Shown: positions 28,283 through 58,400 of the stretch, in pieces
How positions within the stretch are numbered: position 1 is the first letter of the stretch
Layout: each line of letters begins with the position of its first letter
Origin: Sulfurimonas autotrophica DSM 16294
Lineage (GTDB): Bacteria > Campylobacterota > Campylobacteria > Campylobacterales > Sulfurimonadaceae
Length of the DNA: 64,000 nt
Assembly: GCF_000147355.1 (NCBI RefSeq)
Contig: NC_014506.1
Coordinates: forward strand, 124,001 to 188,000
Direction: 5' to 3'
Program-made: the position numbers and the translations under genes
Notes under the pieces: model-generated
Database searches by the model: none
Told to the model about the DNA's origin: nothing
Seen by the model: only the letters and a program-made list of their open reading frames with translations

Positions 28283-29452
28283 ATGGCACTAAACGATTCT
28301 TTAAAAAAAATTAATATATCTAGACTAGATACAACAGGATTATATCTAAAAGATGATTCTAATATTTTCTCTAAAAAAGAGATTAATAAAGATGATCTTA
28401 AAAAATTAGACTATGAATCTATCAGCATAGTACTCAAATTCTACTTTAGAAATAAACAAAAGAAAGAAACCGTATCTTATAATAATATAACTGGACTTCA
28501 AGCCATCAAAAAAGCAATAGCAACTAGAGCTGAACTAAAAGTTGAAATAGAAGAAACTGGAATAATTAAGAAAAAAGATTTCAAAACTTTAAGTGAGTAC
28601 TGGGATGAGTATGTCTTTTATAAAAGTTCTATATGGAGTCCAGATACTAAAGTCACAAATACTACTTTTTATGACAAATGGATAAGAGAACAAATTGGTG
28701 AGATTAATTTTGAAAAAGTAACAACTAGGGATTTACAAGATATCGTCAATTTAATTCTAAGAAGCAGTAATCCTAAAACTAAAAAACCTTATGCTACTCG
28801 TACTGCTCAAAGTGTAAAGCAACAGATAAGAGCTCTTTATAACTATTTTATTAAATCGAACATAACTAAAATAAATCCAGCTATTAATATTGAGATACCA
28901 AAATTTGACAATACTATAGATTTTGAACTCAGTGATGATGAGCGTAAAAAACTTTTTGAAGCTATAAACAACTATGAACTAGCAAAATTTAAAGGGGTAA
29001 TGCTTTTCTTATATTCCGGCAGACGTTTAAATGAAGTTCTAACACTAGATTGGCGCAATATACACTTTCATAAAAAAACATATACTATTGATTCCATATA
29101 TGCGAAGAATAGACGAACTCTCGAGTTCCCTATTCCTCCAGTATTAGAAGATTTCCTATTATCTTATCATCCAAAAAAAACTGGTTTAATTTTTGTGGCT
29201 CAGAAAGACCCAAATAAACCTCTAAGTCAAGAAACATTTCGACGACACTGGAAAATAGTTATTGACAGATTAGATATAGATAAAATGCGAATACATGACA
29301 CTCGCCATCTTCTAGGCAATACAATGATCAATAAAGGTTTTTCTTTGGAAGCTGTTGGTAAAACAATGGGACATAGCTCGGTGCATGTCACTACTAGATA
29401 TGCTAAGACTAATCTAAATACTGTTAATAATGTTTTGAATGATTATTTTTAA
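28283..29452 (+). CDS. Tyrosine-type integrase
   Basis: A 389-aa recombinase that should cut at the tRNA-Leu site. The catalytic residues are all present: R248 in SGRRLNE, H338 and R341 in IHDTRH, H364 in MGH and Y373 in TTRYAK. An N-terminal arm-binding domain and a SAM-like core-binding domain (about 100-195) precede the catalytic part. It lies 145 bp from the attL fragment and reads into the element. Confidence 0.95.
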   Translation: MALNDSLKKINISRLDTTGLYLKDDSNIFSKKEINKDDLKKLDYESISIVLKFYFRNKQKKETVSYNNITGLQAIKKAIATRAELKVEIEETGIIKKKDFKTLSEYWDEYVFYKSSIWSPDTKVTNTTFYDKWIREQIGEINFEKVTTRDLQDIVNLILRSSNPKTKKPYATRTAQSVKQQIRALYNYFIKSNITKINPAINIEIPKFDNTIDFELSDDERKKLFEAINNYELAKFKGVMLFLYSGRRLNEVLTLDWRNIHFHKKTYTIDSIYAKNRRTLEFPIPPVLEDFLLSYHPKKTGLIFVAQKDPNKPLSQETFRRHWKIVIDRLDIDKMRIHDTRHLLGNTMINKGFSLEAVGKTMGHSSVHVTTRYAKTNLNTVNNVLNDYF

Positions 29453-29674: not shown

Positions 29675-30151
29675 TTGAGTAAAATAACTTTTGATCACAT
29701 TGGAAATCCTTCTCCATATAAAATCGTTCCTTTACTCAAGAGTGAATGTGAAGAGTATTTTGTTACTAATTTTGAAGATTCTCAAACACGACCTTTAAAC
29801 TGGAAAAAATACAATATTTATTCGCATAGTTTGAAAAATTTACTTATGAAACCTCTTATCCAATGGCTAGCAGGGAGTTTCACTACAACGAAATTAAATC
29901 CAGAAGATATTGATTTAGTTAATTTTATTGAATATATAGATTTTAAAAGCGAACTAGCTAATTTTGATATGAATAGATCTAATCATTTTCCAAAAAAACA
30001 ATATAACATTGATGGATACAATGTGCTTGTATTTCCTGAAGAACATCCTTATTATGTTAAAATGGTAGAAAGAAAAGCATATTGGAAAAAACAATTTGGA
30101 TCTGATAGAGATAACAATCCAAAAGCATTAATTGAGGTAACATACACATGA
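29675..30151 (+). CDS. Nucleotidyltransferase-like protein (DUF6932-like)
   Basis: A 158-aa protein from a TTG start at 29675 with AAAGGA 7 nt upstream. LAGSFTTTKLNPEDIDLVNF (residues 65-84) matches the GS...DxD core of the nucleotidyltransferase fold, in the form GSFxTxKxxPxDID seen in a small uncharacterised family that I recall as DUF6932. D78 and D80 would bind metal. It overlaps the ImmA/IrrE gene by 4 bp, so the two are coupled. Whether it is a toxin, an antitoxin or a modifying enzyme is unknown. Confidence 0.6.
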   Translation: MSKITFDHIGNPSPYKIVPLLKSECEEYFVTNFEDSQTRPLNWKKYNIYSHSLKNLLMKPLIQWLAGSFTTTKLNPEDIDLVNFIEYIDFKSELANFDMNRSNHFPKKQYNIDGYNVLVFPEEHPYYVKMVERKAYWKKQFGSDRDNNPKALIEVTYT

Positions 30152-30906
30152 AGTTAGAAGAACAACTTAATGATATAAAAAAAATGATTACCACCACTAA
30201 ACAACTTTTAGTCGATCACCCTAGTGATGAAATGCTACTTTATATGCTAGCTCAAGATGAAGAATTATATGCCCTCTCTATTGCAAAGGCATACTCACGA
30301 ATAATGCCATCATTTGATAATGCCGAAGATGTTATTAAAGCAATTTATTCGGAGAAACATAGCTCAGCTGTTGATCCTTTTCATATTGCTGATTTTTTAG
30401 GGATTAAAATCAAGAAAGATTTTCATCTTAGTGAAGGCATTGGTAAATGTGACTTCTATGAAGATCAAATTATTATTACATATAAACCTTCTAATCATTT
30501 TAGAGATAAGTTTACAATTGCACATGAGCTCGGCCATGTTTTTTTACATTTTTCCAAAGGATTAAGCCTTGAATTTACAGACTATGAAAGTGTTGTAGAT
30601 GAACCTATAATTGCAAATAACACTAGTTATAAACCTGTAATATCCGCTGCAAGACTATCTGCTCAAACTGATGATTTTGAAAAAGAGCAAGAAGCAAATA
30701 ATTTTGCTGGAGAACTTCTTGTCCCTCGCTTTATACTTGATAAAATTTTAAATAAACTTCCATCTGGAAAAGCTATCAATGCTTCACTTCTAAAAGATTT
30801 ATTTCAAGTATCACGACCAGTAATCCGAATTTCACTTGTAGACTATGGACTTTTAAATAGTGGAAAAGTTCTCGACGATATTAATATACAAAATAGAGGA
30901 TGGTAA
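30148..30906 (+). CDS. ImmA/IrrE-family metallo-endopeptidase
   Basis: A 252-aa zinc peptidase. FTIAHELGHVFLHF holds the HExxH motif at residues 126-130, and EKEQEANNFAGELLVP gives the third-ligand Glu region, followed by the helical tail usual in the family (VSRPVIRISLVDYGLL). There is no N-terminal XRE helix-turn-helix; instead residues 1-60 form a helical leader. ImmA-like peptidases usually cleave a repressor or partner protein. It is the middle gene of a three-gene operon. Confidence 0.85.
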   Translation: MKLEEQLNDIKKMITTTKQLLVDHPSDEMLLYMLAQDEELYALSIAKAYSRIMPSFDNAEDVIKAIYSEKHSSAVDPFHIADFLGIKIKKDFHLSEGIGKCDFYEDQIIITYKPSNHFRDKFTIAHELGHVFLHFSKGLSLEFTDYESVVDEPIIANNTSYKPVISAARLSAQTDDFEKEQEANNFAGELLVPRFILDKILNKLPSGKAINASLLKDLFQVSRPVIRISLVDYGLLNSGKVLDDINIQNRGW

Positions 30907-30907
30907 T

Positions 30908-32284
30908 ATGGAATTAATAGACTCCGACAAGATAGATATTCTTTCATTTGGGGATAGTGATATTAGTGTTCTTAAAGATAGTACAATGATTTTTTCCACT
31001 AAGATACCAGCATTTGATATTACTGCAACTACAGTTAAAGAATCCATTGTTGAAAATGAACATAGCTTTGAAGATGAACAAGAGACTAGTTATAAGTTAC
31101 ATATATCATCGTCATTAAATGGTGTGGAATACCAATTATTATGTGATGATCTGATTGATGATGCGGTTGTTGTTCAAATAGTAGAAATGGGAGATAGTAT
31201 ACCATCGTCTACATCTAATGTTATAGCTACATACGTACCTCTTGTAAAATATACGAATAGAACGATTGACTTATTATCTTGTATTATTCCTCAAGCTAAT
31301 AAGCAAATACTTCCACTAATAGACATACGAAAAGAAAAGCAAATAGTAAAATATGAAAAAGATAATTTTTATTTTCCTCATATCTTAGACTTGTGTGATT
31401 TACACACAGTCGCTAATCATCAGGAAAGGGAGGACATTAAGCTTTTAAGAAAAACAAACAAAACTAATCCTCCCGAAATTCCGGATGAGATTGAAATTAG
31501 ATCAACACCTGAGTCAATTATTTCTCAATATATAAGGTTGAAGAATAAAATATTATTTATGCCTGTATGTAGAATAGATACAGAAGAGTCTCCTACTCTT
31601 GAATTTGGAAAGTATGCAGATGCATTACTTGAAAATTTTGACAAAATCACACTAAGGGTAATGGGAACAAATAATTTTGAAAACAACATACAATCTTATC
31701 TAATGAAGTTCTCAAAAATTCTTCATTGTTCATGCATAATAATAGAGTTTAATGGTATTAAGCCAAATAGAGAAAGAGAAATTATTGAATATGTTTCTAA
31801 TCTCGATACAGATATTCAAATAATTTATGCAAAGGAAACTACAAACTATAAAGAACACTCTATTACTATTAATCATCTGAATATATTTCCGAATACTTCT
31901 CTATCTGGGTACTATGACAGACTGCAAGACTCTGACAGTTCTCTTTGGTATGCTGACTATTGTGGATATGATAGAGATACCGCAACAGAGTTTGTAATAG
32001 GTATGAAGCCTAATGCATCACTGTATCTGATAGCAAATGATGATGCTATGGATATTATTATATTAAAAGTAAAACACCCTACAGAAAGAGGTACCGCAAA
32101 ATGGACACTTTCTGCTCAAATGCTTATAAATAATTATGTTAAAACAGGTTTAGTTAATTCAAGATTTTTAGATGCTACTCATTGTAATTCATGTAATACA
32201 ATACTTCGTACTAGTTCCCTTACACTTGCTAGTGCAAAATATTTATCAATGTTACATAATGCCACTACTTTAGCTGTATTGTAG
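30908..32284 (+). CDS. Beta-family-like protein (phage Beta/sce7725 type)
   Basis: A 458-aa protein beginning at the ATG 1 bp after the peptidase stop; AGAGGA lies just upstream. YVPLVKYTNRTIDLLS followed by ILPLIDI (residues 109-140) is the opening pattern of the Beta protein family (YVPIxK...IxPLIEI), and SSLWYADYCGYD resembles its later acidic block. The first about 100 residues look like an added domain. Members commonly occur next to sce7726-like nucleases and ImmA-type proteins in variable islands; the function is unknown. The assignment is from pattern memory and is moderate. Confidence 0.5.
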   Translation: MELIDSDKIDILSFGDSDISVLKDSTMIFSTKIPAFDITATTVKESIVENEHSFEDEQETSYKLHISSSLNGVEYQLLCDDLIDDAVVVQIVEMGDSIPSSTSNVIATYVPLVKYTNRTIDLLSCIIPQANKQILPLIDIRKEKQIVKYEKDNFYFPHILDLCDLHTVANHQEREDIKLLRKTNKTNPPEIPDEIEIRSTPESIISQYIRLKNKILFMPVCRIDTEESPTLEFGKYADALLENFDKITLRVMGTNNFENNIQSYLMKFSKILHCSCIIIEFNGIKPNREREIIEYVSNLDTDIQIIYAKETTNYKEHSITINHLNIFPNTSLSGYYDRLQDSDSSLWYADYCGYDRDTATEFVIGMKPNASLYLIANDDAMDIIILKVKHPTERGTAKWTLSAQMLINNYVKTGLVNSRFLDATHCNSCNTILRTSSLTLASAKYLSMLHNATTLAVL

Positions 32285-32980
32285 TGGGTAATTAATATCA
32301 CTTTTATTACTTCTAAAGGCTTTTAAGTCTTTTAGCTTTTGAAACACACTAAATCCTAACTCAAATCTATTTTTTAAAACATACCTAAAAATTCTAACAC
32401 TATCTCTTTTTCCATAATTCTTAGAAAACAACTCTACTAATGTATCTTTATCATCACTCATTTTAAACTTTTGCTGTTTTAATCCTAAAAAGTACCTAAG
32501 TTCTTTTTTCCATAAGAATGGTGCAATATTAAAAGATGTTGCTAGTCTATTGATCCGTGCATCTTGAACAATACCAAAACAAACTTTATCATCTTTCCAA
32601 TAAGCTTTTATCAAACCTATATTAGATGGTAAATTTAAGCCTTTTAAATTATATTTACCGTCCCAGTATACTAAATAAACATACTCAAACATTTCACTAA
32701 ATCCATTTACTTGTGCATTTAATCTTTTCGTAGTATCAAAAGCACTTTTCACTTCGTAAGCGATACTATGACCATTTGAGACAACAACATCTGCTATTTT
32801 TGTGCCAAATGTAGTATTAACTGATATTTCAGTTGTTATAGTCTTATTGTCATACCTGTTATCTAACCACTCTATAAGTGAATAGGTAATAGTAGGTGCA
32901 TCAGCTCTTTTCATAGTTGAATTGTATCTATTATTCTCTTGTAGAAAAATATCTTCCTTCTTAAAATTTGTATATTTCAT
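32270..32980 (-). CDS. sce7726-like PD-(D/E)xK protein
   Basis: A 236-aa protein with E51, D64 in TKIADVVVSNG and E76-V-K78 in IAYEVKSAFDT, a complete PD-(D/E)xK nuclease core; RLNAQVNGFSEMFEYVYLVY follows as in sce7726-family proteins. The rest (about 150-236) is helical and basic. It is convergent with the Beta-like gene, overlapping by 15 bp. The sce7725/sce7726 pairing known from other genomes supports reading the four genes 29675-32980 as one module. Confidence 0.65.
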   Translation of the reverse strand: MKYTNFKKEDIFLQENNRYNSTMKRADAPTITYSLIEWLDNRYDNKTITTEISVNTTFGTKIADVVVSNGHSIAYEVKSAFDTTKRLNAQVNGFSEMFEYVYLVYWDGKYNLKGLNLPSNIGLIKAYWKDDKVCFGIVQDARINRLATSFNIAPFLWKKELRYFLGLKQQKFKMSDDKDTLVELFSKNYGKRDSVRIFRYVLKNRFELGFSVFQKLKDLKAFRSNKSDINYPLQYS

Positions 32981-33395: not shown

Positions 33396-34049
33396 CTAAT
33401 TATTTACTAGTTTTAATATCTCTTTAGTTAATTGCTTAATCTCTTGAGCAGCAGTACCTTTTTTATTGAGTTCTTTAACTGTTAATCCATCCCCATAACT
33501 ATTTTTGTAATCTGCCCTTGTATGGATTACACTATCTAGTAAATTAAAATATTTATTATTCTCTTTAATGTACTCACGTAGGTCTCTCAATTTATTTTTA
33601 GATCGACTATCTACATTGTTTAGAAGCACATTTGTTTTAATTTTCACATCAAGAGCTTCACTTGCTTCTTTTAATATTTTTCTGAACTTCTGTAAACCGA
33701 AGATCTCTATTTGAGAGATACCTACTGGAGTAATGATGATATCTGCTTTTATAAGTGCTGCTCTGTTAACATCACTATCATATCCACCACTATCTATGAT
33801 GAGCAGATTTTCTTTATTGCCGGAGTACTCATTAATGAAATTACTAAAATCTATGTCGCTCTCTTTGACACATTTAATGGTTGGTAAGTTTTCACTTATG
33901 CGCAGTTGATTAAAAAGTATTGCAGAGTTTTGAGAGTCAAGGTCGAGTAAAACTAAATCTTTGTACTTCTTTTGAAGTTGGTAAGCTACATTAATCGAGA
34001 CTGTACTTTTACCCACTCCTCCCTTTTGATGTCCAAATAAAACTATCAT
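33396..34049 (-). CDS. ParA-family partition ATPase
   Basis: A 217-aa ATPase with a deviant Walker A HQKGGVGKST at residues 7-16 (signature Lys before GGVGKST), LLIDSGGYDSD for Walker B and DLDSQNSAI for the A' region. The short form without an N-terminal HTH is the ParF/ParA-Ib type that works with a RHH partner, as here. It would stabilise the element when it is excised or replicating. Confidence 0.92.
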   Translation of the reverse strand: MIVLFGHQKGGVGKSTVSINVAYQLQKKYKDLVLLDLDSQNSAILFNQLRISENLPTIKCVKESDIDFSNFINEYSGNKENLLIIDSGGYDSDVNRAALIKADIIITPVGISQIEIFGLQKFRKILKEASEALDVKIKTNVLLNNVDSRSKNKLRDLREYIKENNKYFNLLDSVIHTRADYKNSYGDGLTVKELNKKGTAAQEIKQLTKEILKLVNN

Positions 34050-35234: not shown

Positions 35235-35990
35235 TCAAGAGTGTTTAGCCTTAATCTTTCGTAGATCTTCTCTTAACCTTGATAGTTTTGACAAAACACC
35301 TTTATCTTTTATATTCATCGCTTGGAGTTCATCACACTTATTAATCCCTAGTACTACACAATCATCTTTTATCTTAGTATATAGTTCTATAAGCTCTTGG
35401 AGCTCTTTCTCAACTCTTGCCGCTTCTATTGACAACTCCTTGCGAGTATGTAAGAACTCTGTAAATTGACCATCTCCTTCCTTAAACATTGGAATAGGTA
35501 ATTTAGATAAAGATGCTGCACTTAAGATTTTTCTATCTTTTGAGCCACATGTGATATGATTATCTAAGTACTCTCGAATATAAGGTAGTTGCAAATATGC
35601 TTGCACAAATAGCGGTGTTTCATTACATCTGTTGTGAGGAAATTGTATTCTAATCATAGAGTTGTTACCAACTATGACTCTCTTATAATTATTGCCTATT
35701 AGTCCAACCTTACCGACTTTGCCTCTTTGTGTCATGACTATATCACCAGGTTGTAAAATTTGTGATCTCATTGCAGCATAATTAGCCGGTCCTACTTCTT
35801 TTGGATTCTTTGGTATATATACCACTCCATATTTATTAATATTATTAAGAGATATCTCATCATAATCTGTATATGTACGATCCTTACCAACTCTTACTTT
35901 TGATATACCAGCTATTTTAGTAGTTATATCTTCTAACTTTACTATCTCTGTATTTGGGAACAGTGCTTTTAATTTAACTTCTAAATTCAT
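35235..35990 (-). CDS. Orphan half-size type I specificity subunit (HsdS-like)
   Basis: A 251-aa protein with one target recognition domain: VKLEDITTKIAGISKVRVG, then LQPGDIVMTQRGKVGKVGLIG and SKDRKILSAASLSKLPIPMF, and one C-terminal coiled spacer (RKELSIEAARVEKELQELIELYTKIK). Normal HsdS has two such repeats, as in the 442-aa HsdS at 39073. A half subunit could dimerise and form a full specificity subunit, or act with another methyltransferase. It is on the opposite strand from the hsd operon and separated by small genes. The stop is 4 bp from the XRE gene stop. Confidence 0.75.
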   Translation of the reverse strand: MNLEVKLKALFPNTEIVKLEDITTKIAGISKVRVGKDRTYTDYDEISLNNINKYGVVYIPKNPKEVGPANYAAMRSQILQPGDIVMTQRGKVGKVGLIGNNYKRVIVGNNSMIRIQFPHNRCNETPLFVQAYLQLPYIREYLDNHITCGSKDRKILSAASLSKLPIPMFKEGDGQFTEFLHTRKELSIEAARVEKELQELIELYTKIKDDCVVLGINKCDELQAMNIKDKGVLSKLSRLREDLRKIKAKHS

Positions 35991-37124: not shown

Positions 37125-39083
37125 ATGGCAGAACAATCGATTTCAGCTCTAATCTGGTCAACAGCAGACCTTCTTCGTGGTGACTACAAACAATCAGATT
37201 ACGGTAAGATTATTTTGCCATTTACACTACTTAGAAGATTAGAGTGTGTTCTTGAGCCTACTAGAGATGATGTTTTAACAGAGAATGAAGCTAGAAAAAA
37301 CCTTGGTATCCCTATGGAGCAGTTTCTTACTCGTAAGTCAGGACATAGTTTCTACAACACTTCCAAATATACACTTACTAAGTTAATGTCAGATCCTAGC
37401 AATATTTCTCAAAACCTTGAGAGTTACATCAACGACTTTAGTCCAAATGCTAGAGAAATATTTGAAAAGTATGAATTTACTGCTCAGATAGACAAGCTCA
37501 ACGAAGCGAATCTTTTGTATCTTATCATAGAGAAATTTGCTACAGTTGATCTGCATCCAGATACTATTTCAAACCATGCAATGGGGATCGTATTTGAAGA
37601 GTTAATCAGAAAGTTTGCAGAGCAGTCAAATGAGACAGCAGGAGAGCACTTCACACCAAGAGATATAGTTAGGCTCACAACTTCACTACTCTTTTCTACA
37701 GATGATGATGTCCTCACAAAAAAAGGAATTGTAAGAAGTCTTTATGATCCGACAGCTGGTACTGGTGGATTTCTCTCTAGTGGTAGTGAGTATGTGCATG
37801 AACTCAACCCTGATGCAACACTCGTAACCTTTGGTCAAGAGTTAAATGGTGAGTCCTATGCTATCTGTAAAGCAGATATGATGATCAAAGGTGTACAAGT
37901 AGAGAACATCAAACATGGCAATACACTGAGCGATGATCAGCTAGGGGAAAACAAGTTTGATTATATGCTCTCTAATCCTCCCTTTGGTGTTGAGTGGAAA
38001 AAAGTTGAAAAAGTTGTAAAAGCTGAAAATGCAGAGCAAGGATATAACGGTAGGTTTGGTCCAGGGCTTCCTCGTGTAAGTGATGGTTCACTTCTATTCT
38101 TACTACACTTAGTTTCAAAGATGAGACCAAAAAGAGAGGGAGGGAGTCGTATAGGTATCATCCTTAACGGTTCACCTCTTTTTACTGGTGGTGCTGGAAG
38201 TGGCGAGAGTGAGATAAGAAGATATATTTTAGAGAACGATTATCTTGAAGCAATAGTTGCTATGCCTAACGATATGTTTTTCAATACAGGTATCGCTACT
38301 TATATCTGGATACTTTCTAATAATAAACCTGAGCATAGACAAGGGGAAGTACAACTTATCAATGCTTCAAGCATGGGTAATGCTATGCGAAAATCTTTAG
38401 GTTCTAAGCGTAAGTTCCTAGATGAAACACAGATAAGTGACATAGTGCGAATCTATGGGGAAAATGCAGCTGCTAAAATCTCTAAAATATTTAACATTAC
38501 CGACTTTGGTTATAGACGCATCACCGTTGAGAGATCTCTACAACTAAGCTACTTCCCACATGATGCAGACAAACTAGAGTCACTCCAAAATGACAAAGTA
38601 TTTGTGAAGATGAAAGAGCTTGGAGCGGAGATACTTACTGCTCTTGGAGCTATAGAGTCAGATAAGATTATGAGTCGAACAGAGTTCAAAAATGAGTTAA
38701 GTAAGAAGATGACAAGCAAACTTAGTGCTACCCAATTTAAGCTTGTCCAGAAGCATATCTCGATGCATGATGATGAAGCAGAACTGTGCAAAGACTCCAA
38801 AGGTAAGCTAGAAGCAAATGCAGACCTACGAGACTATGAGAACATTCCTCTAAGTGAAGATATAAATGAATATTTTGCAAGAGAAGTAACACCACATGTA
38901 CCACTAGCATGGATAGATGAGAAAAAAAGAGATGCTAAAGATGGGGAAGTAGGTATAGTCGGCTATGAGATACCGTTTAACCGACACTTTTACGAGTACG
39001 CACCGCCACGACCACTAGAAGAGATAGATGCAGAGCTTGAGACACTTAATGCTGAGATAATGGAGATGCTTCGTGAAATCTAA
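37125..39083 (+). CDS. hsdM: Type I restriction-modification methyltransferase subunit
   Basis: HsdM methylates adenine in the recognition site. The 652-aa protein has the N-terminal HsdM helical domain (LIWSTADLLRGDYKQSDYGK), AGEHFTPRDIVRL, SAM motif I DPTAGTGGFL (residues 208-217) and catalytic motif IV NPPFG (284-288). A -10-like TATAAT lies at 37099-37104, and AGGA precedes the ATG at 37125. It overlaps hsdS by 11 bp. Length is slightly above average. Confidence 0.95.
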   Translation: MAEQSISALIWSTADLLRGDYKQSDYGKIILPFTLLRRLECVLEPTRDDVLTENEARKNLGIPMEQFLTRKSGHSFYNTSKYTLTKLMSDPSNISQNLESYINDFSPNAREIFEKYEFTAQIDKLNEANLLYLIIEKFATVDLHPDTISNHAMGIVFEELIRKFAEQSNETAGEHFTPRDIVRLTTSLLFSTDDDVLTKKGIVRSLYDPTAGTGGFLSSGSEYVHELNPDATLVTFGQELNGESYAICKADMMIKGVQVENIKHGNTLSDDQLGENKFDYMLSNPPFGVEWKKVEKVVKAENAEQGYNGRFGPGLPRVSDGSLLFLLHLVSKMRPKREGGSRIGIILNGSPLFTGGAGSGESEIRRYILENDYLEAIVAMPNDMFFNTGIATYIWILSNNKPEHRQGEVQLINASSMGNAMRKSLGSKRKFLDETQISDIVRIYGENAAAKISKIFNITDFGYRRITVERSLQLSYFPHDADKLESLQNDKVFVKMKELGAEILTALGAIESDKIMSRTEFKNELSKKMTSKLSATQFKLVQKHISMHDDEAELCKDSKGKLEANADLRDYENIPLSEDINEYFAREVTPHVPLAWIDEKKRDAKDGEVGIVGYEIPFNRHFYEYAPPRPLEEIDAELETLNAEIMEMLREI

Positions 39084-40401
39084 GTATAAACCGTATCCTA
39101 GTTATAAGGATAGTGGGATTGCATGGTTGGGGGAAGTTCCTATCGGATGGGATGTTAGAAGGTTAAAGACTATTTTACAAGAACGGAGAGAAAAAAACAG
39201 TCCTGTTAAAACAAAGGATATTTTATCTTTGTGTATGTATAGAGGTGTGATTCCTTATTCTGAAAAAGGTAATAGTGGCAATAAAGCTAAAGATGATTTA
39301 ACAGCCTATAAGTTGGCATACCCTAATGATATAGTCCTAAATAGTATGAATGTTGTGGCAGGTTCAGTTGGGCTTTCAAAATATTTTGGAGCCGTTAGTC
39401 CTGTGTATTATATGCTCTATCCAAGAAAATCAACAGATGATATTTCTTATTTCAATGCTATTTTTCAGTCTGAAAGTTTTCAAAAAAGTTTAATTGGTTT
39501 AGGTAATGGGATACTTGTCAAGCAATCTGAAAAAACTGGAAAATTAAACACTATTAGAATGAAAATTTCAATGGATAGCTTAAATGATGTTTTAATGCCA
39601 ATTCCCCCTTTCCAAGAGCAACAAACAATAGCCAACTACCTCGACAATGCCACAGCAAAGATAGACACCCTCATCGAAAAGCAGACAAAACTTATAGCAC
39701 TCCTAAAAGAGAAACGCCAAGCTGTCATATCCACTGCTGTGACTCGTGGACTAGACAGTTCAGTACCTATGAAAGATAGTGGAGTTGAATGGTTGGGGGA
39801 GATTCCTGAACATTGGGAGGTTAAGAAGTTCAAGTATCTCTTTGAAATCAGAAAACGAATTTCTGGAAAGCTTGGATATGATATTTTGTCAATAACTCAA
39901 AAGGGAATTAAAGTCAAAGATATTGAAAGTGGTAAAGGTCAATTATCATCGGACTATTCAAAGTATCAACATGTATATAAAGGCGATTATGCAATGAATC
40001 ACATGGACTTATTAACTGGCTTTGTGGATTTATCAAAATATGATGGAGTAACAAGTCCTGATTATCGAGTGTTTTCAATTATTGAAAAAAATGCAGATGC
40101 AAATTACTATTTATTTTTACTTCAAATGGGATATATCAATAAAATCTTTTATCCTCTAGGACAAGGCTCATCACAATTTGGAAGATGGCGTTTACCTAGT
40201 GATGCATTTAAAGAGTTTCAAGCTCCTTTTCCACCTCAAGAAGAACAAAAGAAGATAGCTAAGTATATTGATGATAGCTTAACAAAGTTTACTAAACTTA
40301 CTACAAAAGCAACCAAAGCAATAGAGCTACTAAAAGAAAGAAGAACAGCTCTTATTAGTGCAATTGTTACTGGTAAGATAGATGTGAGGGAGATAGCATG
40401 A
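39073..40401 (+). CDS. hsdS: Type I restriction-modification specificity subunit
   Basis: A 442-aa HsdS with two target recognition domains. Each starts with the same pattern (KDSGIAWLGEVPIGWDVRR and KDSGVEWLGEIPEHWEVKK) and each is followed by a conserved helical spacer (EQQTIANYLDNATAKIDTLI and EEQKKIAKYIDDSLTKF). This gives a two-part recognition site whose sequence cannot be predicted. It overlaps hsdM by 11 bp and the DUF3800 gene by 4 bp. Confidence 0.94.
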   Translation: MKSKYKPYPSYKDSGIAWLGEVPIGWDVRRLKTILQERREKNSPVKTKDILSLCMYRGVIPYSEKGNSGNKAKDDLTAYKLAYPNDIVLNSMNVVAGSVGLSKYFGAVSPVYYMLYPRKSTDDISYFNAIFQSESFQKSLIGLGNGILVKQSEKTGKLNTIRMKISMDSLNDVLMPIPPFQEQQTIANYLDNATAKIDTLIEKQTKLIALLKEKRQAVISTAVTRGLDSSVPMKDSGVEWLGEIPEHWEVKKFKYLFEIRKRISGKLGYDILSITQKGIKVKDIESGKGQLSSDYSKYQHVYKGDYAMNHMDLLTGFVDLSKYDGVTSPDYRVFSIIEKNADANYYLFLLQMGYINKIFYPLGQGSSQFGRWRLPSDAFKEFQAPFPPQEEQKKIAKYIDDSLTKFTKLTTKATKAIELLKERRTALISAIVTGKIDVREIA

Positions 40402-41114
40402 GTAATAAACTTAAAATAAATATTTATTGTGATGAGAGTCGTCATACCTCAGGTGGTGACAGATACATGGTAATAGGTGCTATAAAGTGTGAAAGAGAGC
40501 TAAAAAGAGAGATAGTGCATCAAATACACAGTATGAAAAAAAAGCACAATGCACAAGGTGAATTTGGGTGGAAAAGATTATCTCCTAATAAAAAAGAATT
40601 TTACTTTGAACTACTAGAGCTATTTATAAATAATGATTTATCATTTAGATGTATAGTTGTTGATAAAGAGAAATTAGATCATGACCTCTACAACGATGGA
40701 GATAAAGAGTTAGGTTTTTATAAGTTCTACTATCTCATGTTAAAAGATACATTAGAACATGATAAAGAATATTATTTATATTTGGATTGGCAGCAGAATC
40801 GAGATCAACATAGATTTAGAAATTTAAAATATTTTCTTCAAAAAAAGCTTCAAGGTAAAGCAAAGATATCATGTTTAGAACCAGTAACTTCGACAAACCA
40901 ACCTCTTATAGAGTTAGCTGATTTATTTATGGGTGCAGTAGGTTATCAGTATAACGATAGAAATAGTAGTGATATAAAAATTGAATTTTGTCAAACATTA
41001 GCTGAGAAACTAAATGCTCTTAATAATAAAAACTTTAAGATGGGAAACCTCAAAACATTTACTGCAAAAAATGAAAAAAAGTTCAATATCTTTAAATGGG
41101 AGTCTTATCAATAA
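40398..41114 (+). CDS. DUF3800 domain protein inside the hsd operon
   Basis: A 238-aa protein with INIYCDESRHTSGGDRYMVIGA at the N-terminus (D12, E13) and LIELADLFMGAVGY near the C-terminus (Asp followed by a GxxxY pattern), the hallmarks of DUF3800, a family with an RNase H-like fold common in mobile elements and defence islands. It is translationally coupled to hsdS upstream and to the next gene (TAATG). Its role is not known; an accessory nuclease is the usual guess. Confidence 0.85.
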   Translation: MSNKLKINIYCDESRHTSGGDRYMVIGAIKCERELKREIVHQIHSMKKKHNAQGEFGWKRLSPNKKEFYFELLELFINNDLSFRCIVVDKEKLDHDLYNDGDKELGFYKFYYLMLKDTLEHDKEYYLYLDWQQNRDQHRFRNLKYFLQKKLQGKAKISCLEPVTSTNQPLIELADLFMGAVGYQYNDRNSSDIKIEFCQTLAEKLNALNNKNFKMGNLKTFTAKNEKKFNIFKWESYQ

Positions 41115-41778: not shown

Positions 41779-44700
41779 ATGAGCAAACATAAAGAAAGAC
41801 AGTTTCAAATAGAGATAGTAGAACACCTAAAAGCTAACAAGTATGTAGAGGGTGATGCAACACACTACGACAGAGAATTAGCACTCTACCCTAGTGACCT
41901 CATAAATTATATCAAATCTACTCAACCTCAAGCTTACGAAAAGATGCAAAAGAGAGAAGGCTCAAAAACTGATGAAGTGCTATGTAAACATGTAGCAAAA
42001 GAGATGGACAAGCATGGTTCGCTTCATTACCTAAGAAATGACCTCAAGTACATCGGTTCCAAGTTCAAATTATGTCAATTCAAACCAGAACTGCATAACC
42101 CTGATACTCAAGCTAAGTACGATGCCAATATATTACGAGTTGTTCAAGAAGTAACTACAAAAAGTGGAAATGAGCGAATAGATTTAGTGTTATTTCTCAA
42201 TGGTATTCCCATCGTTACATGTGAGCTAAAAACAGACTTCACACAAAATGTTCAAGATGCAGTTAACCAGTACAAATATGAAAGACCAGCAAAAGGTGAA
42301 GCACTCCTAGAGTTCAAGCGAAGAGCTTTAGTTCACTTTGCAGTAAGTAACGATGAAGTCTATATGACTACAAAGCTAGCAGGAGATAAAACTTTCTTTT
42401 TACCGTTTAATAAAGGTCAACTAGATGGTAGTGCAGGTAATCCACCTAATCCTAATGGGTATGCTACAAGCTATTTATGGGAAGAGGTGCTTCAAAGAGA
42501 TTCTATACTTAATATCATTGCTCGTTATATACACCTAGAAGTAAAAACAAAAGAGGATCATCAGGGTAAAAAAAGTAAGAGCGAAACGCTCATCTTTCCA
42601 AGATATCACCAACTAGATGTCGTAAGAAAATTACTAGCAGATACAAGAGAAAAAGGTGCAGGTAATCACTACCTAATACAGCACTCAGCTGGCTCAGGTA
42701 AGTCAAACTCTATAGCATGGCTATCTCATCAACTCTCATCTTTGCATAATGACCAAGAAGAGTCGGTCTTTAGTTCTGTTATCGTTATTACAGATAGAAC
42801 AGTACTAGACAATCAACTACAAGAGACAATATCGAGCTTTGAGCATAAAGATGGTGTTGTCGTTGGAATAAGTCGTGATGGTTCTAATGAATCTAAATCA
42901 GCTCAACTTGCTGACGCACTTGAACGCGGTGCTAAAATTATAATCACTACAATACAAACTTTTCCATTTGTACTAAAAGCGATTCAGAAGAGAACATCAC
43001 TTAAAAATAATAGTTATGCCATTATCGCTGATGAAGCTCACTCATCTCAAACTGGTTCAACCGCTAAACAACTACGAGAAGTTCTTACAGCAGAGCAAAT
43101 AGAAGAAGGTGTAGAACTGAGTGCAGAGGATATCATCACAGCTTCTATAGAATCACGAAGTGCGAGTACTAACCTAAGCTTCTATGCGTTTACTGCAACA
43201 CCAAAAACAAAAACATTAGAGATGTTTGGTGTACTGCCTAAACCAGATGAAGCACCATCCGAGACAAATAAACCTCAAGCTTTTCACTTATATACAATGA
43301 AGCAAGCAATCCAAGAGGGATTTATTTTAGATGTACTTCAAGGCTATACTACTTACAAGCTTTTTTATAAACTTGAGCATGCCAATATGAAGCATGATCA
43401 AGAAGTAGAAAGCAAGAGAGCTAAAGTAAAAGTTGCTAAATGGTTAAACATCCATCCTCACAATATTGCTCAAAAGATAGAGATTATTTGTGAGCACTTC
43501 AAAACTACAGTAGCACCACTACTAGACGGGCAGGCTAAAGCAATGGTAGTAACTTCAAGTCGAAATGCAGCAGTTAGGTATAAACTAGCATTTGATAAAT
43601 ATATACAAGAGCATGACATAGAGAAGATGCAGGCTATGGTTGCTTTCTCAGGCAAGATAGAGGATGATATAGAGGGAACTACAAAAGAGTACACTGAAAC
43701 TAGCATGAATCCTAATCTCAAAGGTAGAGAGATGCGAAAAGCATTTGACAGTAATGATTACCAGGTAATGCTTGTGGCTAATAAATTTCAAACTGGTTTT
43801 GACCAACCTAAATTGTGTGCAATGTATGTAGATAAAAAACTAGGTGGTGTTGATTGTGTACAGACGCTCTCAAGACTAAATAGAACTTATGCAGGTAAAG
43901 AACAAACTTTTATCCTCGACTTCTATAATGAAGCAGAAGATATAAAAGAAGCATTTGAACCATACTATAACACTACAGAGATAGAAGATGTGACAGACCC
44001 TAATATTGTCTACGACATGCAACACAAACTAGATGAGAGCGATATCTTTACAACTATGGATGTGGAGAACTATGCAAAGGCTTTCTTTAACCCTAAAGGC
44101 ACACAAGCTGCAATGAGCAGTGCAGTTAAACCCGCTGTAGATAGATATAAAAATAGATACAAATTAGCACTGGAGAATATCAATAGCGTTAAAGTTAATC
44201 TAGCAGAAGCTAAAAAGAATAAAGATGATGCAGGGATTCATAATTATGAGTTAGACTTAAAGGTTGCTAATGAAGATAAAAACGCACTCGATATCTTTAA
44301 AAAAGACCTTATTTCATTTTTACGAATGTATGAGTTCTTATCTCAGATAGTAGATTATGCAGATGAAGATTTACTCAAGCTTAGTGCATTTGTGAAAGCA
44401 CTCATCCCAAATCTAAAGACTTATGATCCTAAAGACCCTATAGATATATCAGAAGTACAACTCTCACATTACAAGCTACATAAACAAAAAAATCAAAATA
44501 TTGATTTGGTTGGTGATGAAGTGGAACTTGGTGCGATAGGTGAAGTAGGTTCAGCAGTAGCAAAAGATCCAGAAAAAGAGCTACTTTCAGCAGTACTCGG
44601 TCATATGAATGCGCTATTTGAAGGAAACCTTACAGATGAAGATATGATTAATTATGCCAATACCATTAAAGACAAGGTACTGGAGAATGATAAGGTAGTA

Positions 44701-44892
44701 GAGCAAGTGACTAATAATACCAAAGAGCAAGCGATGATGGGTGGATTTGCAGATGCTATTAATAGTGCGGTAATTGATAGTTTAGAAGTACATCAAGATT
44801 TGGCTACTCAGGTACTTGGTAAAGATAGGATACGAGCTGGGTTTGCGGATATCGTTTATGAGTTGATTGCTAAGGGATTAAAGGCTAGTTAA
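41779..44892 (+). CDS. hsdR: Type I restriction endonuclease subunit
   Basis: HsdR drives ATP-dependent translocation and cutting. The 1037-aa protein has the N-terminal nuclease domain with D135 and E149-L-K151 (IDLVLFLNGIPIVTCELKTDF), Walker A QHSAGSGKSN at 301-310, DEAH at 418-421, FTATPK for helicase motif III, and QTGFDQP and LSRLNRT for motifs V-VI. All key residues are intact, so the system looks active. It carries its own leader region rather than overlapping the gene before it. Confidence 0.95.
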   Translation: MSKHKERQFQIEIVEHLKANKYVEGDATHYDRELALYPSDLINYIKSTQPQAYEKMQKREGSKTDEVLCKHVAKEMDKHGSLHYLRNDLKYIGSKFKLCQFKPELHNPDTQAKYDANILRVVQEVTTKSGNERIDLVLFLNGIPIVTCELKTDFTQNVQDAVNQYKYERPAKGEALLEFKRRALVHFAVSNDEVYMTTKLAGDKTFFLPFNKGQLDGSAGNPPNPNGYATSYLWEEVLQRDSILNIIARYIHLEVKTKEDHQGKKSKSETLIFPRYHQLDVVRKLLADTREKGAGNHYLIQHSAGSGKSNSIAWLSHQLSSLHNDQEESVFSSVIVITDRTVLDNQLQETISSFEHKDGVVVGISRDGSNESKSAQLADALERGAKIIITTIQTFPFVLKAIQKRTSLKNNSYAIIADEAHSSQTGSTAKQLREVLTAEQIEEGVELSAEDIITASIESRSASTNLSFYAFTATPKTKTLEMFGVLPKPDEAPSETNKPQAFHLYTMKQAIQEGFILDVLQGYTTYKLFYKLEHANMKHDQEVESKRAKVKVAKWLNIHPHNIAQKIEIICEHFKTTVAPLLDGQAKAMVVTSSRNAAVRYKLAFDKYIQEHDIEKMQAMVAFSGKIEDDIEGTTKEYTETSMNPNLKGREMRKAFDSNDYQVMLVANKFQTGFDQPKLCAMYVDKKLGGVDCVQTLSRLNRTYAGKEQTFILDFYNEAEDIKEAFEPYYNTTEIEDVTDPNIVYDMQHKLDESDIFTTMDVENYAKAFFNPKGTQAAMSSAVKPAVDRYKNRYKLALENINSVKVNLAEAKKNKDDAGIHNYELDLKVANEDKNALDIFKKDLISFLRMYEFLSQIVDYADEDLLKLSAFVKALIPNLKTYDPKDPIDISEVQLSHYKLHKQKNQNIDLVGDEVELGAIGEVGSAVAKDPEKELLSAVLGHMNALFEGNLTDEDMINYANTIKDKVLENDKVVEQVTNNTKEQAMMGGFADAINSAVIDSLEVHQDLATQVLGKDRIRAGFADIVYELIAKGLKAS

Positions 44893-47514: not shown

Positions 47515-48186
47515 CTAGTTGTCCAAATAATTAATCGCAAGCAAACTCACAGTTTTATCTTTATTTTGAGTAAGAATTTTATTTAACTCACTATTATTCA
47601 GAATATAGCTCCTCAAGCCAACATAAGTGCCAAACTCAATAATTTTATGAATAGAAGTAATTGATACATCTTTTAAAAGCATCTCTTTAATCTTCTCAAG
47701 ATATGGATCATACTTACTCTTAACTTTTTGTCCAGGCTTACGACCAAGTTTTTTGCCAGATGCTTTAGCAGCAGCAAGACCTTGTTTAGTTCTCATAGAT
47801 ATAAATTCACGTTCACTCTCTGCAAAATATGAGTAGATTGCAAGAAGCAGTTTATTATGTGCAGAGTTAAATGTTGATAGTTCTGGTTGACGAATGAAAA
47901 TAAGCTTTATACCTTTATCACTTAACTCTTGAATAAGATTCATTACATCCATCATATTTCTACCAAGTCTACTAAGCTCTGCAACAATCAAAGTATCATC
48001 TTTTTGAAGTCTATCTTTGAGTTCAGTGATTTTTCTTAACTTCTCACTTTTTCTTGAACTTATTTCAACTTCTATAAAATCATTAATTTTTAAACTATTA
48101 GAATGAGCATATTCTAAAATTAAGTGTTTTTGTTTTTGGTTATCTTGTTTATCAGTTGAAACTCGAATATAGCCTAAAATCATCAA
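47515..48186 (-). CDS. Serine recombinase (resolvase/invertase family)
   Basis: A 223-aa protein. The N-terminal catalytic domain has LGYIRVSTDKQDNQ (nucleophile S10), LIVAELSRLGRNMMDVM and EREFISMRTKQGLAAAKASGKKLGR, the standard resolvase blocks. A C-terminal helix-turn-helix follows (about 150-200). It could resolve cointegrates or invert a segment; no pair of matching res sites was found by eye, other than the palindrome at 47403. Confidence 0.92.
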   Translation of the reverse strand: MMILGYIRVSTDKQDNQKQKHLILEYAHSNSLKINDFIEVEISSRKSEKLRKITELKDRLQKDDTLIVAELSRLGRNMMDVMNLIQELSDKGIKLIFIRQPELSTFNSAHNKLLLAIYSYFAESEREFISMRTKQGLAAAKASGKKLGRKPGQKVKSKYDPYLEKIKEMLLKDVSITSIHKIIEFGTYVGLRSYILNNSELNKILTQNKDKTVSLLAINYLDN

Positions 48187-55498: not shown

Positions 55499-58400
55499 TT
55501 ATTTTTCATTTCTATCAGCATCCATAAGTCTCTCAACCGCCGCTTGAATACCCTCAGAGGTCTCTTGGTTAAATTCTGTACCTAGAGCTATATCTTCTTG
55601 AATTCTTAGAGATTCTGCACTTGTGTCATTTCTAAAGAGAGTATCGTTTTTATTCGCTCCGTATATCTCTTGTCCTGCTGCATTAGTACTGAAGCCAGTT
55701 GATGTACTAATCGCTTGTTGCGTGTTAAATCCACTTGGAGTTGAGAATGCGGTTTGAACATGTTGTGGAACTGTAGATACAGGCTGAACACCTTTAACCC
55801 ATGATGGAGTAGTAAATCCATTACTATTAGATTTGAATTGTGCTTGCATCTGTTTTAGCTCATCCCCACCATAAGATGAATCTCCTAAGCTTGTACCAGA
55901 TGCATGTGCTATAGGATCAACTGCATCCATTATGTCTGATGCTGTCGCACTTACACTTCCTAGTGCCATAGCACCAGCACTCATTGCAATTTTTGTTTTC
56001 CACGAACCACCGCCATCCCAAACATTACTTAAAGCACTCATTCTTTTCTCGAAGAAACCTTTCTCGCTAGGTACCTGTAAGTTAGGTTTAGTATTTGCTT
56101 CTATCCTCTTCATATGTGCATCTTGCATTGCATTAATCTCCATAGCTTGACGACTTGCTACATTTGGATTATCTGGATTAAGTGCATTTTGTTGAGCATG
56201 AGTAGCTTTTAACTTATCCATATCAGAGTTATATTTTGTATCTTGATTTAAAATCTGTTCTTTTTTAAATTGTGCACCTATTTGTTCTGAAATTGATGGC
56301 TTGATACCTTGTTCAGATTTCGGTATAATAGTATTAGAATTTATATCAGGAGACTTTTTATGACTCACATCATTTTGATTGCTGTTGCTACTGCTATTGG
56401 CATTTTCGTTGGAGGTCTGGTTCTTTTCGGTGGATATGGTTTCATCCAGGGACTCAGAGGTAAAACCACTTCTTAGATTTTTACCTTTTTCATTTAGACT
56501 ATTTTTTGCATTATCCCATCCAGCTTTAATAAATCCTTTTTTATAATTAGGGTTGTCTTTCATAGCAACTTTGCCATTTCTAGTAACCTCACCATTTTCA
56601 TTAACACCAAAACCTTTCCCATTTGAATCAATAAATCCACCATTGCCATCAGGTTTTGCTCCATGCATATCTTCCATTTTCATAGGTATTTTCTCTGATG
56701 CTATATGTTTAGAATACTGATTAGCTGTTGCTAATCCTGCTGCTCCCATTGCTAACCCTACACCAACTGCACCAGCGAAACCACTTACGGAGTAATCAAG
56801 TTTAGAACCTCGTTCTGTACTATCTAAAGATGTTCCGGTAATTCTAGTGTTTCCATCCATATCTCTATCTATATTCATACTTGTTCCGGCTATTTGCACT
56901 TGCTTATCTCTTCCCATGTCTCCAGAGTTTAGAACTGCCATTGCATCAGAGAATTTTGTTCCTGTAGCTACTTTAATTGAGCCATCCTCCATTGTTTTAA
57001 CTAATCCTGCTCGCTCCATTTGATCCAGGGCTTGTGCTTCTTTCTCATCAGCTTGTTCACCTTCATATCCTTTTCTTGACATCATTAGTGCTTTTTTAAC
57101 TAATCCATTATTAGCTTCTTGATCTTCATCGAGTAGCATCTTCGCTTTATCTTTGCTAGCCTGTTGACTTGCCGTTTTTGCTTGACTCTCAGCAAATTGT
57201 TCTGGACTATCAAACTTTCCTGTAGTAGCTATATCAGCAGCAGTCTTACCACCGGCTAAAGTACCAGCAGTTTTTGCAAGTTTATCAGTAGCACTAGCAA
57301 GATCTTTAATACTAGAATCTAGCCCATCTTTAGCACCGGCTTGTTTTAGTTGGCTATCGAGTACTTCCTCTTGAGTTTTTGCTTTTACAGATGATTCTGT
57401 TGCATCTACTTTAACAGCACCCTCTACTCCGCCTTGTGCACCTAGCTTAGATTGTGTACTTTGTTGGCTACTCATTTCTCCATACATTGCATTTTGAGAA
57501 TAATTTACTCCGGCAATTTTATTTTGGTCTATTCCTATTGCTTGACCTAGTTGAGCATCTAGCTTAGATTGGTCTATACTATCTGTTACATCACTTAAGC
57601 TTCTACTCACTCCACCTGTTTGGTTTGCTTCATCTAACATATCCAACATTGCTTGTTTCTTTTGGGGATCTTTTTCATTCAATGCAGCATCAAATAAATC
57701 ACTTCTATCTTTAGAGGACATCTGCATCATTTTTTTACTATCAAGATTACTACCATAATCATCTCTTAGGTTATCGGCATGAGTTGCAGAGCTTATACCT
57801 TTTTCTTGAGCAGCTGTTACCATATCTTTGATTGCACCATCCAAACTACCATGTTTCATTATTTCAGCATGTGTTGAATCAATACCACCAAACTCTTGTA
57901 CTGCCGCATTGTCTTGCAATTTTGACATGGTTTTAATATCATCACCAGTAGCAGTTCTTTTATCCCATTCTTCACCAACACCCAAAAGAGAGTTTTCAGA
58001 TTTTCTTCCGGCTTCTTCTGAGCCACTTGAAGCTTTCTTAAATGCATCATTAAGAGTACCTTTTTCAATATCAAGTGCATTATGAGCACCTTGGGCTTGT
58101 GTCTCTTTATGTACAGATGCTATTGCATTACCACTAGCAATACTGTCTTCGTTCCATTGAGTGTTCTTATTGTCCATATCACTAAGATCATCTCTTCTAT
58201 CCGCAACTTTAGAAACAGTTTTAGCAGCTATGTGTCCATCTTGAAGTGCTGTAGATAAATAATCATCCATATTACCTACTTCACCGGCTCCTATCTGATT
58301 ATTAGCCTTTTGAGCAGAAGTCAAAGCAGCACCTTTTATAAGTGCTTCTGTTGCAGCATTACCGGCAAGTGTACCATCACTATTAAACGCACCAGTTTCA

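Follow-up and report, generated by a model that had tools for sequence, protein, structure and literature searches.

A four-gene cassette beside an integrase in Sulfurimonas autotrophica looks like a hybrid variant of the PD-lambda-2 and gop-beta-cII anti-phage systems

The subject of this study is a four-gene cassette in the genome of Sulfurimonas autotrophica DSM 16294 (contig NC_014506.1), located within a 64,000-nucleotide stretch of DNA that was analyzed as a whole (positions 124,001 to 188,000; the window). Its genes, here called A to D, encode a minimal nucleotidyltransferase of the DUF6932 family, an M78 metallopeptidase, a divergent Beta-family protein and a predicted sce7726-family nuclease (Table 1). 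An original prediction had proposed these genes as an undescribed defence module of tightly coupled genes just inside an integrase, and renewed measurement bears out this layout: A and B overlap by 4 bp, B and C are separated by 1 bp, C and D converge with a 15-bp overlap, and all four reading frames are free of internal stops, while a PF00589 recombinase ends 222 bp upstream of A. The 4 family assignments also held, and the residues singled out as functional are present (D78 and D80 in A, a HELGH motif from residue 126 in B, and D64, E76 and K78 in D).

Table 1. Coordinates of the cassette genes and of neighbouring features in the window.
Feature	Position	Strand	Remarks
Gene A, DUF6932 minimal nucleotidyltransferase (slot gene)	29675-30151	+	158 aa, TTG start
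Gene B, M78 (ImmA/IrrE-type) zinc metallopeptidase	30148-30906	+	252 aa
Gene C, divergent Beta-family protein	30908-32284	+	458 aa from ATG
Gene D, sce7726-family (P4 cII-like) predicted PD-(D/E)xK nuclease	32270-32980	-	236 aa, convergent with C
Tyrosine recombinase (integrase)	28283-29452	+	PF00589, 77.9 bits; adjoins the cassette
ParA-like ATPase	33399-34049	-	
Orphan type I specificity (S) subunit	35235-35990	-	half-length; PADLOC Specificity_I 2.1e-12
Type I M gene	37125-39083		named by eye
Type I S gene	39073-40401		named by eye
DUF3800-like gene	40398-41114	+	by eye
Type I R-like gene	41779-44892		named by eye
Resolvase-type serine recombinase	47515-48186	-	by eye
TraG-like conjugation protein	55499-60487	-	by eye

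The product of gene A matches PF22014 (DUF6932) with 94 bits (cut-off 27), which is its sole Pfam match at E ≤ 1, and no HigB/RelE family was found. At the same threshold, its only PADLOC match is PDC-M63A (3.3e-19) with none to gop. Across a 41-row DUF6932 alignment that includes none of the plasmid proteins of the XRE-M78 type (see below), every row has G67, S68, D78 and D80, and at least 90% of rows have D113; the plasmid XRE-M78-type proteins keep the former four residues and carry a glutamate at the D113 position. The AlphaFold model of A (pLDDT 93.4) was compared to known structures with VIA-align, where nucleotidyltransferases fill rows 1-15. The best Z is 6.5 (98 residues aligned, root-mean-square deviation 4.1), and the tool itself rates Z values in this range as modest. 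The five matches with the best Z comprise one putative nucleotidyltransferase and AadA entries, and a HEPN-MNT complex (Z 5.2) and an MNT antitoxin (Z 5.0) are found as well (8xeh, 8xeo). Foldseek gave no significant match to the model; among its first eight, six are nucleotidyltransferases (CdnC twice, Tam41, 1ylq, HI0073 and TdT) and a seventh is the SO_3166-SO_3165 pair. A search of the DUF6932 profile against the sequences of solved structures likewise remained insignificant (best 0.16 for a designed protein; DNA polymerase beta at 0.91). Because fold and active-site residues agree, we nevertheless assign A to the minimal nucleotidyltransferases of the Pol-beta superfamily, whose GS...DxD...D/E active site it displays in a nucleotidyltransferase fold. 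A has no strongly hydrophobic stretch, with a top 19-residue mean of 0.68 versus 2.0 in the Gop protein of P4.

Gene B encodes a match to PF06114 (Peptidase_M78; 42.7 bits, cut-off 22) at residues 84-226, preceded by an N-terminal segment of around 60-80 aa. Its best PADLOC match is capP (2.1e-15), and RmrA is matched, too, both of which we take as unspecific; CapP is reported to degrade the repressor CapH (PMC12255303). Searches for B found no relative in the viral_contigs set and only 4 weak records among plasmids, none of which spans 80% of B; no DUF6932 or Beta was called alongside these matches (L014-L017). No M78 match was obtained among sequences of solved structures. Gene C scores 13.4 bits against PF14350 (Beta_protein; E 0.054), which is below the cut-off of 27, and a profile built from 15 other Beta proteins matches it with an E-value of 4.6e-10 in a search space of one sequence. 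Because this match covers residues 108-436, we read C as a divergent Beta protein with an extra N-terminal portion of around 108 aa. The Y, P, P and D columns are invariant in a 14-row Beta alignment including C. Relatives of C were found neither in viral_contigs nor in plasmids or phages, and a search of 149 related genomes recovered C itself alone at E ≤ 0.001. Comparing Beta with solved-structure sequences yielded nothing usable (best 0.25), and a predicted Beta fold from a 5-row alignment was discarded at a mean pLDDT of 31.5. Gene D matches the NCBIfam model NF033832 (sce7726) with 92 bits versus a cut-off of 70 as well as PADLOC cll (6.1e-25), and all 12 aligned sce7726 proteins share its E51, D64, E76 and K78. 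D is therefore a predicted nuclease with the E...D...ExK core of PD-(D/E)xK enzymes. One other genome among 99 scanned encodes a relative of D (E 2.4e-7), and the best match of sce7726 among solved-structure sequences (0.0068), a viral fusion glycoprotein, was taken as chance.

The plan of this cassette combines those of 2 anti-phage systems that were described separately. In the P4 record, gop is followed by beta and a convergent cII, annotated as sce7726, adjoining int; this system is reported to protect against lambda and P1, and toxicity of gop without beta is cited in the same source (Rousset et al. 2022, PMC9122126). The window shares with it the order of a first gene, whose place we call the slot, then Beta and a convergent sce7726 gene by an integrase. 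Yet Gop is a small membrane or coiled protein whereas the slot of the window holds a nucleotidyltransferase, the P4 system has no M78 gene, and the gop and beta models miss A and C of the window. The second relative, PD-lambda-2, is made up of a HigB-like protein, an Xre-peptidase and a relative of a P4 antitoxin and is reported to protect against phage (Vassallo et al. 2022, PMC9519451). According to the same report, its Xre-peptidase B is toxic alone and rescued by A, while its Beta protein C is needed for defence but not for toxin neutralisation. Fusions of Xre to COG2856 proteases had previously been predicted as parts of three-component toxin-antitoxin systems with RelE or PIN toxins (Makarova et al. 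2009, PMC2701414). Like PD-lambda-2, the window has a tightly packed series of slot gene, M78 and Beta, with C directly after B (1-bp gap), and the B and C genes of two plasmid relatives of the window cassette score as PD-Lambda-2_B and _C. Unlike in PD-lambda-2, gene A encodes a DUF6932 nucleotidyltransferase and not a HigB-like protein, B is not an Xre-M78 fusion since it lacks the Xre helix-turn-helix (HTH) domain, the PD-Lambda-2_C models miss C, and the cassette also includes a convergent sce7726 nuclease. The label "undescribed" thus does not hold for the parts, because Beta and sce7726 by an integrase follow the P4 plan and M78 with Beta follows that of PD-lambda-2; what stands is a real unit whose order is kept elsewhere and whose tested relatives are anti-phage. 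Two more systems resemble gene A only. The PADLOC candidate system PDC-M63AB contains a protein of the same DUF6932 family, but its M63B partner (around 310 aa) is replaced by M78 in the window, where no M63B match lies downstream of A. In HEPN-MNT (HepT-MntA), the MNT antitoxin fold resembles that of A, but the partner is a HEPN RNase instead of a metallopeptidase. In the open-access literature that we searched, the name DUF6932 is absent, and we found neither a description of DUF6932 in the slot or of the union of all four families nor any DUF6932 system shown to defend.

The neighbourhood is not random, as the idea of a module had implied: distantly related bacteria share this arrangement of the four families, so that their co-occurrence goes beyond chance. 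DUF6932, XRE-M78, Beta and a convergent sce7726 follow one another in all 6 fetched plasmid records that have a DUF6932 of PD-lambda-2 type and an intact Beta, i.e., those of Marinibacterium (L034), Agrobacterium fabrum (L037), Rhizobium lentis (L085), A. tumefaciens (L086), Sinorhizobium terangae (L087) and S. meliloti (L088), with L037, L085, L086 and L088 being near copies of one another. For two of the six, Pfam assigned DUF6932 (119 and 102 bits), HTH_3 with Peptidase_M78, and Beta (261 and 239 bits), and in these two records PADLOC called B as PD-Lambda-2_B (8.5e-76 and 9.1e-74), C as PD-Lambda-2_C (6.4e-38 and 8.1e-37) and A as PDC-M63A. The same four-family order is kept next to Tn7-like genes on an Acinetobacter pittii plasmid (L118, L039), where Beta is split by an IS30-flanked insertion bearing blaNDM-1, and four further plasmid records have DUF6932 and Beta as known from search matches alone. 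Altogether, 28 plasmid records carry a PD-lambda-2-type DUF6932, of which 11 are among the matches of the Marinibacterium Beta and 17 are not; the two fetched from the latter (Tolypothrix, L119; Roseovarius, L120) show DUF6932 and XRE-M78 with no Beta called. As an aside, the cyanobacterial locus (L119:5001-8569) and the one of Roseovarius (L120:4932-8489) both continue with DUF4186 and a similar-looking gene, a radical SAM gene by the Roseovarius annotation, in what is apparently a separate conserved neighbourhood.

On many plasmids, Beta faces a convergent sce7726 gene. Using the E. coli Beta (L021) as query against plasmids, an annotated sce7726 lies beneath the match in 16 of 17 records, the query's own included, and the 17th (L034) has one that is unannotated. 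With the Marinibacterium Beta this is the case in 16 of 27 records, again with an unannotated gene in L034, and the rest include XRE-Beta loci without sce7726 beneath the match. Fetched stretches from E. coli, P. putida and Rhodococcus (L021, L023, L036, L038) contain the convergent pair with no M78 called. Scans of viral sequences found no loci with the queries A4 and L030 Beta, 3 with the Beta of P4 and 25 with that of E. coli, the latter nearly all close copies.

Within the phylum of the window, the Campylobacterota, a PF14350 Beta is encoded in 7 of 397 genomes, not counting C of the window, which is too divergent. All 7 loci include sce7726, 5 include M78, and a membrane protein occupies the slot in 6. 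The five loci L152-L156, all of which were fetched, run in a single direction from sce7726 over a membrane protein and M78 to Beta, an operon that is itself apparently a gop-beta-cII/PD-lambda-2 hybrid. The other two are convergent, with a small helical (L032) or membrane (L033) protein ahead of Beta and sce7726 facing it, and no M78 was called within the 4 kb examined.

DUF6932 itself exceeds the cut-off in 4 of 298 genomes, including that of the window, and mostly keeps other company. A genome scan for the window type found 44 loci, 33 with an M63B partner and none with a called M78 or Beta; among the other 11, five have mixed or unclear neighbours, whereas at six (L042, L043, L045, L047, L048 and L051) the next gene encodes 75-141 aa that look helical. 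These six belong to the Bacteroidota DUF6932 group, and the helical protein may be a minimal DUF6932 partner; at L077, a similar helical start after DUF6932 is, by eye, fused to a HEAT-like repeat. The 29 viral DUF6932 loci include many near copies. M63B accompanies DUF6932 in 26 of them, L096 and L097 have M78 after DUF6932 at a gap of around 175 bp, and the gene at L116 resembles M63B but was not called as such; in Streptococcus phage MissE1, a gene of 55 aa stands between DUF6932 and M78.

Phylogenies of A and D suggest that the window cassette and the plasmid version arose by separate assembly, although long branches weaken this. The tree of A (72 distinct of 86 labelled rows, matches weaker than 1e-8 excluded) splits the nine plasmid XRE-M78-type rows from all others including the window with a support of 100/100 and groups the window with six rows, five from Bacteroidota (100/96). 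Forcing A of the window together with the plasmid type was rejected with p 0.0245 for a 10-row set and far more strongly for the 8-row set without two Beta-less rows, p values that are weaker than they look, as the constrained clades were named after the tree had been seen. This tree omits L001 and L005 (copies of the window) as well as L006, L065, L075 and L079, and it wrongly labels L034, which has M78 and Beta, as "other". The tree of D covers the window and loci up to L126, with matches under 1e-25 and identical sequences entered once. Here, the nuclease of the window forms a pair with that of the Campylobacterota locus L033 (97/99), where the slot gene encodes a membrane protein, apart from the plasmid set; most deeper branches are weak. 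Since the branch of A in the window is long (1.68) and groups were chosen post hoc, we regard this as support and not proof for a separate assembly. Taken together, the two trees suggest that the slot acquired a nucleotidyltransferase on two or more occasions.

Given the plans of P4 and PD-lambda-2 and the prevalence of sce7726 (7/7) and M78 (5/7) at the Campylobacterota loci, the window cassette looks like a hybrid variant with a minimal nucleotidyltransferase in the toxin/antitoxin slot. A function in defence is probable by analogy to the tested relatives, and on balance we favour a mobile anti-phage cassette of the PD-lambda-2/gop-beta-cII kind that would work as follows. By position, A would replace A of PD-lambda-2 and restrain the M78 protein B. 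The simplest way would be nucleotidylation of B, just as MntA adenylylates and blocks HepT (PMC7641770). Phage infection, read through Beta, would then release B, and the freed peptidase would cleave host or repressor proteins so that growth stops in a toxin-antitoxin-like abortive infection, while D would attack DNA. PD-lambda-2 points to a toxin-antitoxin pair of A and B plus Beta instead of the sensor-regulator-effector chain that was originally imagined. We have different confidence in the individual steps: DNA cleavage by D is fairly likely, and a toxin-antitoxin-like pairing of A and B is slightly favoured. A role of Beta as the phage-dependent trigger is conceivable but somewhat doubtful, and our proposal that A is an antitoxin acting by nucleotide transfer, made because PD-lambda-2 A rescues from the same position and because the fold is MntA-like, is more tentative still.

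Several observations weigh against this interpretation. The structural matches of A are right in kind but modest (Z 6.5; Foldseek E 0.2), and PDC-M63AB, a DUF6932 pair, gave no defence in the tested host with the phages tried (PMC12409345). B has no HTH by Pfam at E ≤ 1 and is matched by PD-Lambda-2_B of PADLOC with E 0.0063 over 27 residues only. C is very divergent, is missing the W...HH end of its family and has no match in PADLOC, whose PD-Lambda-2_C and beta models were included. An N-terminal hairpin common to B and other DUF6932 partners, an idea that arose by eye, was rejected because a hairpin profile gave B 2.8 bits, while shuffled sequences scored up to 6.5 (292 of 300 reported), and the XRE-M78 partners of plasmid DUF6932 fared no better than B on this profile. 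Genome scans with A, C and D found the window-type cassette in one genome only, a promoter scan gave no excess over shuffles (nor did a terminator scan), and the open-access literature yielded no experiment on a four-gene version with DUF6932.

Three other explanations are less probable. AbiE/MenT-type toxins are nucleotidyltransferases that modify tRNA or another host target, and A, given its fold, could be such a toxin that is restrained or released by M78 and Beta. The slot would indeed seem to suit a toxin, as it holds gop in P4, which is toxic without beta, a HigB-like toxin homologue in PD-lambda-2 and a membrane protein in 6 of 7 Campylobacterota Beta loci. We consider this inversion of roles unlikely, however, because PD-lambda-2, the nearest system in plan, has a toxic peptidase that is rescued by the slot protein and because antitoxins of two-gene MNT systems are among the structural matches of A. 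The same genes might also be chance neighbours, i.e., a stress module of DUF6932 and M78 next to a gop-beta-cII-like module of Beta and sce7726, both carried as integrase cargo. Each half does occur without a called counterpart in fetched stretches, with DUF6932 and XRE-M78 in Tolypothrix and Roseovarius and the convergent Beta and sce7726 in E. coli, P. putida and Rhodococcus. But the close packing of A, B and C, the M78 gene that immediately precedes Beta at 5 of the 7 Campylobacterota loci and the recurrence of the four-family order on alphaproteobacterial plasmids and by the Tn7-like genes of the Acinetobacter plasmid make this improbable.

Finally, M78 could cleave a repressor so that the cassette would be a DNA damage switch for excision of the mobile element and not a defence system. 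The integrase is only 222 bp away, capP is the best PADLOC match of B, and the proteolysis that inactivates ImmR, which represses ICEBs1, is described as requiring ImmA (PMC2701414). Yet neither an XRE nor an HTH partner gene was found within the cassette by Pfam, and Beta, sce7726 and the tested anti-phage relatives would be left unexplained, so that we regard this as the least probable of the alternatives. The hybrid anti-phage cassette is the interpretation that we prefer.

The surroundings may form an integrative conjugative element with several defence genes (Table 1). The orphan S subunit downstream of the cassette runs opposite to the type I system beyond it, which makes S-subunit switching possible, and the DUF3800-like gene lies between the S and R genes of this system; the ParA-like ATPase, the serine recombinase and the TraG-like protein are encoded nearby. 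A search for attachment-site repeats at positions 27300-60000 gave diverged or short direct repeats, none usable among the 20 of 32 families listed.

More broadly, Beta and sce7726 may form a portable chassis, often with M78, into which unrelated slot proteins are plugged: membrane or coiled proteins in P4 Gop and the Campylobacterota, HigB-like proteins in PD-lambda-2 and the DUF6932 nucleotidyltransferase, the latter in versions assembled at least twice (on alphaproteobacterial/Acinetobacter plasmids and in the window lineage). We hold this generalization to be plausible though short of an even chance. Because the PADLOC models match A, D and, unspecifically, B, but not C, loci of this kind are probably undercounted. 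The cassette links two separately described anti-phage systems by a common Beta/sce7726 core with an exchangeable slot, and DUF6932 gains a testable role. If the chassis reading is true, gop-beta-cII and PD-lambda-2 would be one modular defence class, and the nucleotidyltransferase would represent a new class of enzymatic antitoxin (or toxin) that acts on or with a metallopeptidase.

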